From assembly GCF_900108515.1 (NCBI RefSeq), contig NZ_FNWW01000001.1:992001-1056000 (forward strand): a DNA stretch of 64,000 nt. Direction: 5' to 3'. Position numbers and translations under genes: made by a program. Position 1 is the first letter of the stretch; the number at the start of each line of letters is the position of its first letter. This document shows, one piece after another, positions 17,792-20,953 of the stretch. This DNA is from Halobacillus karajensis (GTDB taxonomy: Bacteria > Bacillota > Bacilli > Bacillales > Halobacillaceae). The notes beneath the pieces are model-generated. The model searched no databases. It was not told the origin of the DNA and saw only the letters and a list, made by a program, of their open reading frames with translations.

Positions 17792-18661
17792 CTATGATTT
17801 TTTCTTACCCTTCGGGATCTTAATGGTGATTTGGTAATAATCATCATGATCTTCTTCATCCGTCTCCAAATCGATTCCCGTATCTGTCACCATGGTCAAG
17901 GATTGACGGATCGTGTTCATGGCAATCCGCATATCCTTATTGACCCCTTTAAGCGTCGGTTTCTTTTTCTTCGGTTGCGGGTCATTTAATTTTGCAATCC
18001 GCTCTTCCGTTTGTTTCACGTTCCATTGTTTTTCAATGATTTCTGTTAAGACTTTTTCCTGCTGTTCTGTTTCTTTAAGCGCTATCAGAGCACGGGCATG
18101 CCGCTCGGTTATTTTCTTATCCATAACCGCCTGCTGGACAGACTCGGGCAATTTCAGCAGACGTAATTTATTCGCAATGGTGGATTGGCTCTTTCCTAAC
18201 CTTTGCGCAAGCGCCTCCTGTGTAATCTGATGCAGTTCAAGCAATTTACCATAAGCGACGGCTTCTTCAATAACGGTCAATTCTTCCCTCTGCAAGTTTT
18301 CAATCAGAGCGACAGAGGCCGTTTGTGAGTCGTCCATATCACGGATGATCGCGGGAATGGTTTCCCAGCCAAGCGACTGGACGGCACGCCACCTACGTTC
18401 ACCGGCAATCAATTCATACTCTTCTTCATTTAACCGACGGAGAACGATCGGCTGAATCATCCCATGCGTATGTATCGTCTGGGCGAGTTCGCTAATCTTC
18501 TCGTTGTTGAAAATCGCTCGAGGTTGGTAACGGTTAGGCTGCACTCGTTCAACAGGAACTTGTACAACTTCGTCGGGGTTGTAGCCTTCTTCTTCATTGT
18601 TGTCATTATCCGAATCCGGTTTGTCCCCTAGCCCGAACAAACGACCAAAAGGATGTAACAC
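17792..18661 (-). CDS. noc: Nucleoid occlusion protein Noc
   Basis: A 289-residue ParB paralogue that binds NBS sites and inhibits division over the nucleoid. The short amphipathic N-terminus ([14 protein letters not shown]) is characteristic of Noc's membrane-targeting helix and distinguishes it from Spo0J. An acidic linker follows (about 14-30), then the ParB box [12 protein letters not shown], a helix-turn-helix ([23 protein letters not shown]) and a C-terminal dimer domain. It starts with GTG at 18661 after AAGGTGG. The usual upstream neighbour rsmG is 11 kb away. Confidence 0.95.
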
Positions 18662-18733
18662 GATCAGACACCACCTTTATACGATCGAGCATACGCTTAT
18701 TTTTTATTGAATTTACTCTATATTTTGAAACAT

Positions 18734-18765
18734 AAAAAGCGCCGCAGGCTACTCAGCTGCTGCGC
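18734..18765 (-). terminator. Terminator-like hairpin upstream of noc
   Basis: On the minus strand GCGCAGCAG and CTGCGGCGC form a nine-base stem with one mismatch, followed by TTTTT, 75 bases before the noc start codon. No gene on that strand lies immediately upstream for it to terminate. It may be a relic of an ancestral rsmG-noc boundary or an attenuator in the noc leader. Confidence 0.55.
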
Positions 18766-19060
18766 ATACGTATGCCGTTTTTCATTTCTTTATTCATTTT
18801 ATCACATTTAATCTATGAAAAGTATCTTCTATATGGAAGAATTCATCTTCTTCTTTGTCGAAAATGCGCTTTTTTTCTATGAAGAACCGTGTTTTTACGC
18901 TATTCAAAGGAATCTACTTTATGACTTTTCATGACAAATCAAGTCGATAGATTTTCTTTTCTCAGATAATAGGAACCCCTTTTTTATTTGTCCCTTCCAT
19001 TTCAAAAAGTAAAGAAGGATTTTAAAGACCTTGAGCATAATTTATATAAGGATAACTAAT
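18766..19060. other. Intergenic region between noc and the exporter leader
   Basis: AT-rich sequence without a convincing gene. A perfect 12-base palindrome GCATACGTATGC lies at 18764-18775. The right end must hold the promoter of the exporter leader; a TATATAAGG near 19042-19050 could be its -10 region, but no good -35 was identified. Confidence 0.4.
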
Positions 19061-19075
19061 GAGGAGGAAATCTAT

Positions 19076-19132
19076 ATGCAAAAAAAATCCGTTTTACTTT
19101 TTACTCCAAACACAGGGGGGAGAGCTTCTTAA
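19076..19132 (+). CDS. Putative 18-residue regulatory leader peptide of the MFS exporter
   Basis: A short frame encodes MQKKSVLLFTPNTGGRAS and stops at 19130-19132. It has its own excellent Shine-Dalgarno sequence, GAGGAGG at 19061-19067, eight bases before the ATG. It ends 56 bases before the exporter start, and the intervening RNA can fold into mutually exclusive hairpins that hide the exporter's ribosome-binding site. By analogy with erm, cat and tet leaders, ribosome stalling on this peptide would expose that site. The inducing drug is unknown. Confidence 0.7.
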   Translation: MQKKSVLLFTPNTGGRAS

Positions 19133-19191
19133 GCTATCATGCTTGACCTCCTGTCCGCATCGGATTTTATTGTGCAGGAGGAGACCTTTTG
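19123..19191 (+). promoter_or_regulatory. Translational attenuator sequestering the exporter ribosome-binding site
   Basis: CCTCCTG (19147-19153) is the exact complement of CAGGAGG (19175-19181), which contains the exporter's Shine-Dalgarno sequence AGGAGGAG before the TTG at 19189. A small nested TCCG/CGGA hairpin lies in the loop. Upstream, AGCTT/AAGCT (19123-19135) and AAGC/GCTT (19131-19144) form alternative stems overlapping the end of the leader peptide. CCTCCT could also pair with the leader's own AGGAGG. This reproduces the four-segment logic of erm-type attenuators. Confidence 0.7.
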
Positions 19192-20400
19192 AAAAAGCAT
19201 ACATGCGCAACCCATAACATTCGCATTTTATTCTGGGCAGAAATTTTTGGGAATATGCGATTTATCCAGCCCGTGCTAACACTTTTCTATTTTTCCAGGG
19301 GCTTGGAAGAAGCCTTGATCATTCTTGTTATGATTTTTTTCAGTACAGGGGTTCTTGTCGGAGAAATCCCGACTGGTGTCATTGCCGATCGATTTGGAGC
19401 TAAGCAGGCCTTTCTCCTCGGTTCCACTCTCAGCATCTGCGCCCATGGTTTATTAATCGTTGCCTTTGACTCTTGGGTATTCTTTCTAAGCAGCTTCCTT
19501 ACAGGGATCGCGGCTACTTTTTTCAGTGGTGCTGATGAAGCCCTGATTTATGAATCGCTAAAGTTAAGTGGAGAAGAAAGTGCCATGGACCGAGCAATGG
19601 GGCAGGTTGGGTCAGCACGGTTTATCGTGTCCATTTTTGTTGTAATCGTCGGAGCCATCCTGGCAAATGATTTGTCTGAAGCACAATTTCGCTTCCTTCT
19701 CACGCTTAGCCTTTGCTTCATGTTTGTCCAATTCATTTTGATTTTGTTCATTAAAAACCCGCCCAACCAGGGTGGAGTCCGAACACCCATGGGAAAACAG
19801 ATAAAAGCAGGATATCAGGCTATCCGTAAAAGTCCACAAATCTTTTGGATGTTCATGAATATCACCCTTGTTTTCATTCCAGCCGTTGCGATCTTTGAAA
19901 AGTTTGACCAAAAACTGTTAGTGGATGCTGGGCTCCCTGTTTATGGCATTGGATTCATTTATGCGCTGACGTCTTTGATCGGGTTCATCGCAGCGAGGTC
20001 CATTGGCTGGATGACCAAAAAGGTGATGCGTATTCAGCTCCTTTTTCTAACCGGAATGCTGGCAGTCATTGCACTGATCGGGGTGGCTTTCTTTCACCAT
20101 TCATTATCAATCATGCTTCTAGCTATGGTTTCAATCAAGCTTACCAGCGCCATTCGCTATCCCGTCTATTCACAGCTGGCGAATGATCTCATTCCTTCCC
20201 ATGTTAGAGCAACGACTATTTCCTTGCTTTCTATCTTGGATTCCATCTTCGATTTAATTATTTTTTCAACAATCATGGGCATTGCCCACGCTGGGTTTAC
20301 GTCTATGTTCCTCGGATGTTCTCTGATAGCTTTCATTGGAACATGGATTCCCATAAATCAAAAGCAGGCTGAACCTAAACAAAGCACGCCCGAAGGTTAA
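19189..20400 (+). CDS. MFS multidrug-type exporter under leader-peptide control
   Basis: A 403-residue major facilitator with 12 predicted helices. The family loop 2-3 motif appears as TGVIADRFGAKQAFLLG near residues 65-81, and the N-terminal half carries acidic residues in GNMRFIQP and VLVGEIPTG typical of drug/H+ antiporters. It starts with TTG five bases after AGGAGGAG. The regulatory leader suggests a ribosome-targeting antibiotic as inducer and perhaps substrate; this is an inference. A terminator overlaps the last codons. It opens the accessory block inserted between noc and rsmG. Confidence 0.85.
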   Translation: MKKHTCATHNIRILFWAEIFGNMRFIQPVLTLFYFSRGLEEALIILVMIFFSTGVLVGEIPTGVIADRFGAKQAFLLGSTLSICAHGLLIVAFDSWVFFLSSFLTGIAATFFSGADEALIYESLKLSGEESAMDRAMGQVGSARFIVSIFVVIVGAILANDLSEAQFRFLLTLSLCFMFVQFILILFIKNPPNQGGVRTPMGKQIKAGYQAIRKSPQIFWMFMNITLVFIPAVAIFEKFDQKLLVDAGLPVYGIGFIYALTSLIGFIAARSIGWMTKKVMRIQLLFLTGMLAVIALIGVAFFHHSLSIMLLAMVSIKLTSAIRYPVYSQLANDLIPSHVRATTISLLSILDSIFDLIIFSTIMGIAHAGFTSMFLGCSLIAFIGTWIPINQKQAEPKQSTPEG

Positions 20401-20431: not shown

Positions 20432-20953
20432 TCACTCTTTATTTATGGCTCCATAAACATCGATATCCTTGTATTCTCCTCTGTGGTAGACATCGTGTTT
20501 AAGAGTTCCTTCATAACTAAGTCCGGCTTTTTTCATCACTTTCAATGAAGCAGGATTTGTCGAAATTGCTGCAGACCATATTCTATGGAGCCCTAATTGT
20601 TCAAATCCGAAATTCACCATCTCAATAGCTGCTTCCGATGCAAAGCCGTTATTCCAATAAGGTTTCCCCACCCAATATGCGAGCTCTCCTTTATTATGGT
20701 GATCGTCCATTCTTAAAGTCATTGTCCCAACCAGTTCTCCTGTGTCCTTCATGATCATCGCCAAAGGGAAGACACATTTCTTTTCTATCCACTCCTTATG
20801 GGAATCAATCCATTGTTCAGCAACCTCTAATGTATATGGATGAGGAACAAAGGTGGTGGCCGCTACGGATGGATCGCCCGCTAATTCAACAACACGTGCT
20901 GCCAGATCCTGTGTATACGGCTTAAGGTACAACCGCTCGGTATGTAATTCCAT
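20432..20953 (-). CDS. GNAT-family N-acetyltransferase (RimJ/RimL type)
   Basis: A 173-residue acetyltransferase of the Acetyltransf_3 group. It begins MELHTERLYLKPY, has the substrate-side segment GELAYWVGKPYWNNGFASEA (the acetyl-CoA loop, about residues 93-112), and ends with the NPASLKVMKKAGLSYEG motif near 133-149. The group acetylates protein N-termini or small amines, and the specific acceptor cannot be read from sequence. An AGGAGG precedes the ATG. It is a single-gene unit converging on the MFS exporter. Confidence 0.85.
   Translation of the reverse strand: MELHTERLYLKPYTQDLAARVVELAGDPSVAATTFVPHPYTLEVAEQWIDSHKEWIEKKCVFPLAMIMKDTGELVGTMTLRMDDHHNKGELAYWVGKPYWNNGFASEAAIEMVNFGFEQLGLHRIWSAAISTNPASLKVMKKAGLSYEGTLKHDVYHRGEYKDIDVYGAINKE

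Follow-up and report, generated by a model that had tools for sequence, protein, structure and literature searches.

The DNA analysed here, called the window, is a stretch of 64,000 nucleotides from Halobacillus karajensis. On its + strand, an MFS transporter gene with a TTG start codon (19189-20400, 403 aa, Pfam MFS_1) is preceded by a short open reading frame. As described in the initial annotation, this leader frame has 18 codons and a Shine-Dalgarno (SD) sequence of its own: AGGAGG at 19062-19067 (+) lies 8 nt before the ATG at 19076, and the ORF (19076-19132, +; read from the sequence and from comparison) ends in TAA and encodes MQKKSVLLFTPNTGGRAS. Three segments of the + strand are considered together with the leader. 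S1 (CAGGGGGGAGAGC, 19113-19125) spans the last leader codons and is recognized as the partner of S2 by covariation. S2 (GCTTGACCTCCTG, 19141-19153) lies in the spacer and has S1 or S3 as its partner, based on duplex statistics and pairing probabilities. S3 (CAGGAGG, 19175-19181) contains the SD of the exporter gene, AGGAGG at 19176-19181, which stands 7 nt before the start codon. The exact complementarity between CAGGAGG and an upstream CCTCCTG, also claimed previously, was confirmed at 19175-19181 and 19147-19153.

The MFS protein of the window has weak NCBIfam matches to drug:H+ antiporter, Tet(40) and TetA(P) models, all far below the curated cut-offs, and profile and single-sequence searches of solved structures retrieved no relative at E up to 0.01. 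A promoter scan gave no promoter-like site on the + strand 5' of the leader, and no Rfam covariance model matched window positions 18600-19400 at E up to 1. Tail to tail with the MFS gene lies a gene that looks acetyltransferase-like by eye (20432-20953, - strand); letters resembling it adjoin the MFS gene in some other Halobacillus loci.

Taken on its own, the window copy is unremarkable: the single-sequence fold of the leader region has a z of -0.94, with 34 of 200 shuffles equally stable. The S2:S3 duplex was equalled by 26 of 200 shuffled spacers and the S1:S2 duplex by 3 of 200. The CCTCCTG/CAGGAGG pairing in this copy alone is not clearly beyond chance. It is conservation across species that raises the putative leader device of the window far above chance.

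A search with the MFS protein gave matches at E up to 0.001 in 59 of 121 related genomes; 37 of the 59 are close (E under 1e-90), and the remainder are distant paralogues or fragments. The scan of named genomes gave 78 distinct MFS loci. Upstream regions were read at 107 loci, 88 of them distinct, with the exclusion of L101, where the match begins inside the protein. A leader ORF with SD-like letters is present about 110-300 nt upstream in 72 of the 88 distinct homologue loci, a count obtained after rejecting one of the 72 picks made by a script (L045, an unrelated ORF) and adding L096 by eye. Leader length ranges from 15 to 22 codons in the 70 loci analysed. The carriers include Halobacillus, Virgibacillus, Rossellomorea, Planococcus, Sporolactobacillus, Pseudalkalibacillus and Chengkuizengella, and the leader is also present in a plasmid copy in Cytobacillus spongiae. 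At L074 it begins 296 nt upstream of the MFS gene, as if separated by an insertion. The upstream regions of 16 of the 88 loci were found to have no leader. A tree of 84 of the 88 proteins (>300 aa; leader present in 68, absent in 16) needs five label changes and places nine of the absences in one clade, so the pattern fits an ancestral leader that was lost a few times. Three other leaderless proteins are single, and L099, L100, L104 and L105 sit on long branches outside the rest under midpoint rooting.

Along with the frame, a pairing of the CCTCCTG/CAGGAGG type is kept in relatives; its absence there would have counted against the earlier claim. In the 72 picked loci, which include the misfit picks L045 and L074, S2:S3 falls within the 5% tail of shuffled spacers at 66 loci and S1:S2 at 61, the S2 stretches of the two duplexes share 5 nt or more in 71 (all but L074), and S1:S2 is the stronger duplex in 69. 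The segments of L010, from a genome of the Halobacillus genus, are GCAGGGGUGAAAGC for S1, GCUUUAACUCCUGC for S2 and GCAGGAGG for S3. S2 can pair with S1 or with S3, never with both at once.

Because S2 was displaced by a few bases in several clades when 43 leaders were aligned with plain MAFFT, the leader covariance model was built on 23 hand-chosen, in-register sequences. On the fitted alignment, which holds 63 of 71 sources, is adjusted to the S1:S2 helix and contains the model's own 23 sequences, S1:S2 shows 87 double-changed cells versus 28.5 ± 4.6 in shuffles, and a covariation score of 0.291, which drops to 0.076 or less when slid. Without fitting, the alignment of 23 has 22 double-changed cells versus 9.7 ± 2.3, and the score is also above all shuffles; two of the five measures are not above shuffles, with both-side-changed pairs matched by 202 of 500 shuffles and pair types by 260 of 500. 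The covariation of S2:S3 is not above shuffles, as expected because one side of that helix is the SD.

These data bear on readings in which the leader has no role, namely that a hairpin at the exporter SD dampens expression passively, or that transcription is attenuated. Any CCTCC stretch can pair with an SD, the single-sequence statistics are weak, and a single terminator-like site of 5 pairs lies at 19153-19165 in the window. However, S1 lies inside the leader and covaries with S2, and the leader is kept with its own SD. Terminator-like sites occur in 2 of 70 spacers (L001 and L089, the window's among them) versus 1.0 ± 0.7 in shuffled ones, so terminators do not explain the leader device, and we give readings of this kind hardly any credence. 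Rfam searches in 10 loci gave two matches at gathering scores, neither of them at the leader.

A role of the leader peptide as a sensing sequence finds no support in the codons. In 7 of 70 leaders (L021, L047, L079, L082, L085, L086 and L090) S1 is read in another frame, which in L021 and L047 corresponds to a single-base gap or insertion in the alignment; L009 and L092 are also frame-different by the script rule, are ambiguous and stand outside the seven. S1 is conserved as RNA; its residues are not. The test for purifying selection covered codons 2-12 in 18 closely related pairs, all from this first MFS family (a second is described below). It showed none: 16 changed codons are synonymous and 42 nonsynonymous, no different from random (0.28 versus 0.22, p = 0.34). 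Because the S1 frame differs in these leaders and codons 2-12 show no purifying selection, the leader peptide seems to matter less than the RNA and the position of the ribosome. It also follows that codon-level selection provides no coding signature for leader translation, the case for which rests on the conserved SD, start and stop.

The codon data likewise speak against a drug-specific arrest peptide with the common start M-Q/L/S-K-T/N as its stalling motif, which we consider very improbable. Residue 3 is Lys in 64 of 70 leaders and residue 4 is Thr in 30 of 70 (codons ACA, ACT and ACG), and both positions lie in the stretch in which a stalled ribosome would open the SD; the second-family leader peptides, by eye, resemble each other more. 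However, the Lys codon is AAA in 63 of the 64, which an A-rich start for initiation explains equally well, and codons 2-12 change as if at random. No conserved amino-acid arrest motif was found in the first-family leaders.

The effect of ribosome position was modelled by folding 70 transcripts codon by codon with a footprint extending 15 nt in both directions from the P-site codon's first base. L045 and L074, whose leaders are an unrelated ORF and far upstream, respectively, were excluded from all sweeps. On free RNA, the exporter SD has a median accessibility of 0.17. This value is 0.24 when the P site stands at codon 1, reaches 0.35-0.40 at codons 4-7, returns to 0.17 at codon 8 and is 0.02-0.04 from codon 9 up to the last codon. 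Accessibility is higher in early than in late stalls in 68 of 70 loci, and higher in early stalls than on free RNA in 58 of 70. Narrower and wider footprints shift the step by about one codon; early exceeds late in 69 and 67 of 70 loci, respectively, and with either footprint P(S2:S3) is greater in late than in early stalls at all 70 loci. In the shuffled-spacer control, which belongs to a separate sweep from the main 70-locus one, the profile is flat (mean 0.33-0.38); the mean accessibility in early stalls is 0.36-0.41 versus 0.37-0.38 with shuffled spacers. Since free RNA is mostly closed already and an early stall reaches only about the shuffled level, late closure of the exporter SD is the firm prediction of the model, and an early stall would only restore about the unstructured level.

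In the window copy, P(S1:S2) is 0.98 on free RNA, and placing the P site at the last leader codon gives a P(S2:S3) of 0.94-0.96. Its SD accessibility in early stalls is 0.10-0.12, not above that in late stalls, the reason being a weak local hairpin into which the model folds the SD. In this copy, only the switch between S1:S2 and S2:S3 is predicted to behave as proposed below.

The initial annotation had suggested a four-segment logic as in erm, cat and tet leaders, with an AGCTT/AAGCT stem. This specific logic is not supported. The stem is not conserved (AAGCT follows the leader in 2 of 70 loci only), the main competing helix, S1:S2, was missed, and a late ribosome is predicted to close the SD. 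The conserved core consists of three segments; a fourth, S0, is at best clade-specific. Compared with shuffles, the S0:S1 hairpin inside the leader reaches the 5% tail in 16 of 70 loci, where 3.5 would be expected, and its median rank is 0.27; it is predicted with P >0.8 in 20 of 70, for example in L013, L048, L066 and L068. An erm-like arrangement would have S0, in mid-leader, paired with S1 by default while S2:S3 hides the SD, and a drug-stalled ribosome on S0 would free S1 for S2; this implies that leader translation is needed for induction and that free RNA is OFF. The 20 loci with a probable S0:S1, the low accessibility of free RNA and the opening of the SD by early stalls all agree with such an arrangement, whereas the restriction of S0:S1 signal to 16 of 70 loci and the dominance of S1:S2 in the free RNA of the window disagree with it. 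We regard it as unlikely, though more probable than the other alternatives considered.

Taking the leader, its segments, the covariation of S1 with S2, the mutual exclusion of the two helices and the predicted gating as what alignments and folding establish, we consider that the device is probably a position-gated translational attenuator, in which completed leader translation keeps the exporter off and an early stall turns it on. In outline, a leader-controlled translational attenuator on a chromosomal MFS exporter, as first proposed, finds support in the conservation of frame and pairing among relatives (leader at 72 of 88 loci). The strong SD would drive translation of the leader. Once past the middle of the leader, or while terminating on it, a ribosome would cover S1, so that S2:S3 forms and the exporter SD is hidden (OFF). 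Ribosomes halted within about the first seven codons would leave S1 free to form S1:S2, the stronger helix, and the SD would be released (ON). The signal would be an early translation block, for example by an inhibitor acting at the start codon or in early elongation, and what is read out would be ribosome position, not an arrest-peptide sequence. We infer that the leader is translated and acts as the physiological sensor, and that it responds to a ribosome-targeting drug which the MFS protein then exports. The most obvious candidate inducers are early-acting inhibitors.

The same helices could instead sense general translation initiation or amino-acid supply, with an untranslated or slowed leader leaving S1:S2 formed. 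This is improbable in our judgement. It would sit well with the absence of peptide-level selection and with a model in which ribosome position by itself is enough, but the controlled genes are MFS transporters, one family of them related to tetracycline efflux, which suggests a drug signal, and free RNA is less open than early-stalled RNA in 58 of 70 loci.

The position-gated attenuator can be set beside known systems. In erm and cat, a drug-stalled ribosome in the leader frees the SD; the arrest peptide matters in erm, and in cat a ribosome near the leader end opens the SD. The proposed device would share with them a short leader ORF, a resistance-gene SD hidden by an alternative helix and a leader ribosome that decides. 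In contrast, late positions are predicted to lock the SD and early ones to leave it open, and the peptide shows no selection. The folding model gives no opening by a late-leader ribosome as in cat: median accessibility is 0.02-0.04 from codon 9.

The vmlR gene of Bacillus subtilis uses a terminator/antiterminator with a uORF(MIN), whose start mutation virtually eliminates expression (PMC9226507). The resemblance lies in a Gram-positive chromosomal resistance gene with a uORF, induction by drugs that stall initiating ribosomes, and alternative helices (PMC9226507). Unlike vmlR/bmrC-type systems, the spacers here have no terminator beyond chance, and loss of leader translation should raise expression. 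In toiL-topAI of Escherichia coli, pairing with uORF RNA masks a downstream SD, ribosome position senses several antibiotic classes, and stalling anywhere in toiL is proposed to unmask the site (PMC12121999); in the device proposed here, unmasking would require a stall within roughly the first seven codons. The predicted logic thus differs from both erm/cat and toiL. The MefAL leader likewise places a short leader peptide before a drug efflux gene, the macrolide exporter mefA, which is controlled by transcriptional attenuation with a +x+ macrolide arrest motif (PMC10314930); the present device is predicted to be translational, and no conserved arrest motif was found. A tool that could find such leaders is uORF4u (PMC10219788). 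No earlier description of the leaders studied here was found in the open literature, judged by title and abstract start among the matches listed.

The leader covariance model matches 40 of 397 genomes of the order. Thirty of the 40 hits precede the same MFS family, and six further ones (G080, G103, G105, G107, G168 and G192) do so by position or sequence; G081, G098, G157 and G246 (E 0.001-0.008) do not. In the class, 16 of 398 genomes match, and four of the hits precede the same family. Seven others that were read precede nothing related, and G614, G538, G606 and G658 were left out of the reading. Weak model hits at L147, L148, L149, L162, L163, L164, L165, L166, L167 and L168 were rejected, with no relative of the MFS gene downstream.

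One class-level hit, L161, precedes a different MFS protein (26% identical). The relatives of this protein (L189-L201) carry another leader in which the same three segments can be seen by eye. Fifteen loci of this second family were read and 12 swept, L190 and L191 being near copies. Accessibility is higher early than late in 12 of 12, clearly so in 11; L197 is closed throughout. The leader form M-x-K/R-x-T-L, with G-M-L or D-M-L near the end, is found in 7 of the 12. At L202 and L203 no such device is seen by eye, and L196 could not be placed. The second-family protein is related to TetA(P) (E 3.8e-76) and Tet(40) (E 1.2e-64), both well below the curated cut-offs. A second, TetA(P)-related MFS family appears from these comparisons to have the same leader design. 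Attenuation is also a feature of the clostridial tetA(P) operon. In a Monoglobus record, a copy of tet(40) starts 53 nt behind another resistance gene and is for that reason uninformative about a leader.

A broader reading, to which we give not quite even weight, is a generic ribosome odometer: widespread Bacilli leaders would report passage beyond about codon eight, independently of the peptide, for at least two MFS exporter families (one TetA(P)-related), such that any early-acting inhibitor turns the pump on and late stalls leave it off. A switch that turns on an exporter when translation is blocked is plausible in many Bacillus-like bacteria. If true, position gating would define a Bacilli attenuator class that has no Rfam entry, is gated by ribosome position and is independent of an arrest peptide. 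It would predict which drugs induce (early blockers) and which cannot, and that loss of the leader ATG raises exporter expression. It would also account for intrinsic exporters that stay silent until an inhibitor blocks translation early.

Other leader types were seen by eye in front of more distant genes. Ten distant MFS paralogues (L171-L173, L176, L178, L180-L182, L185 and L186) have a recurring leader starting M-x-T/S/A-F. Behind it come a GGGACA...TGTCC-like stem that has a T run and, before the gene, a second terminator-like stem; this looks like a separate transcription attenuator. Short leaders ending in R-P-P-C-stop (MSLIIRPPC, MPINLARPPC and MALLPRPPC) precede other MFS genes at L177, L179 and L183, and their pyrimidine stretches could pair with the SD of the gene.
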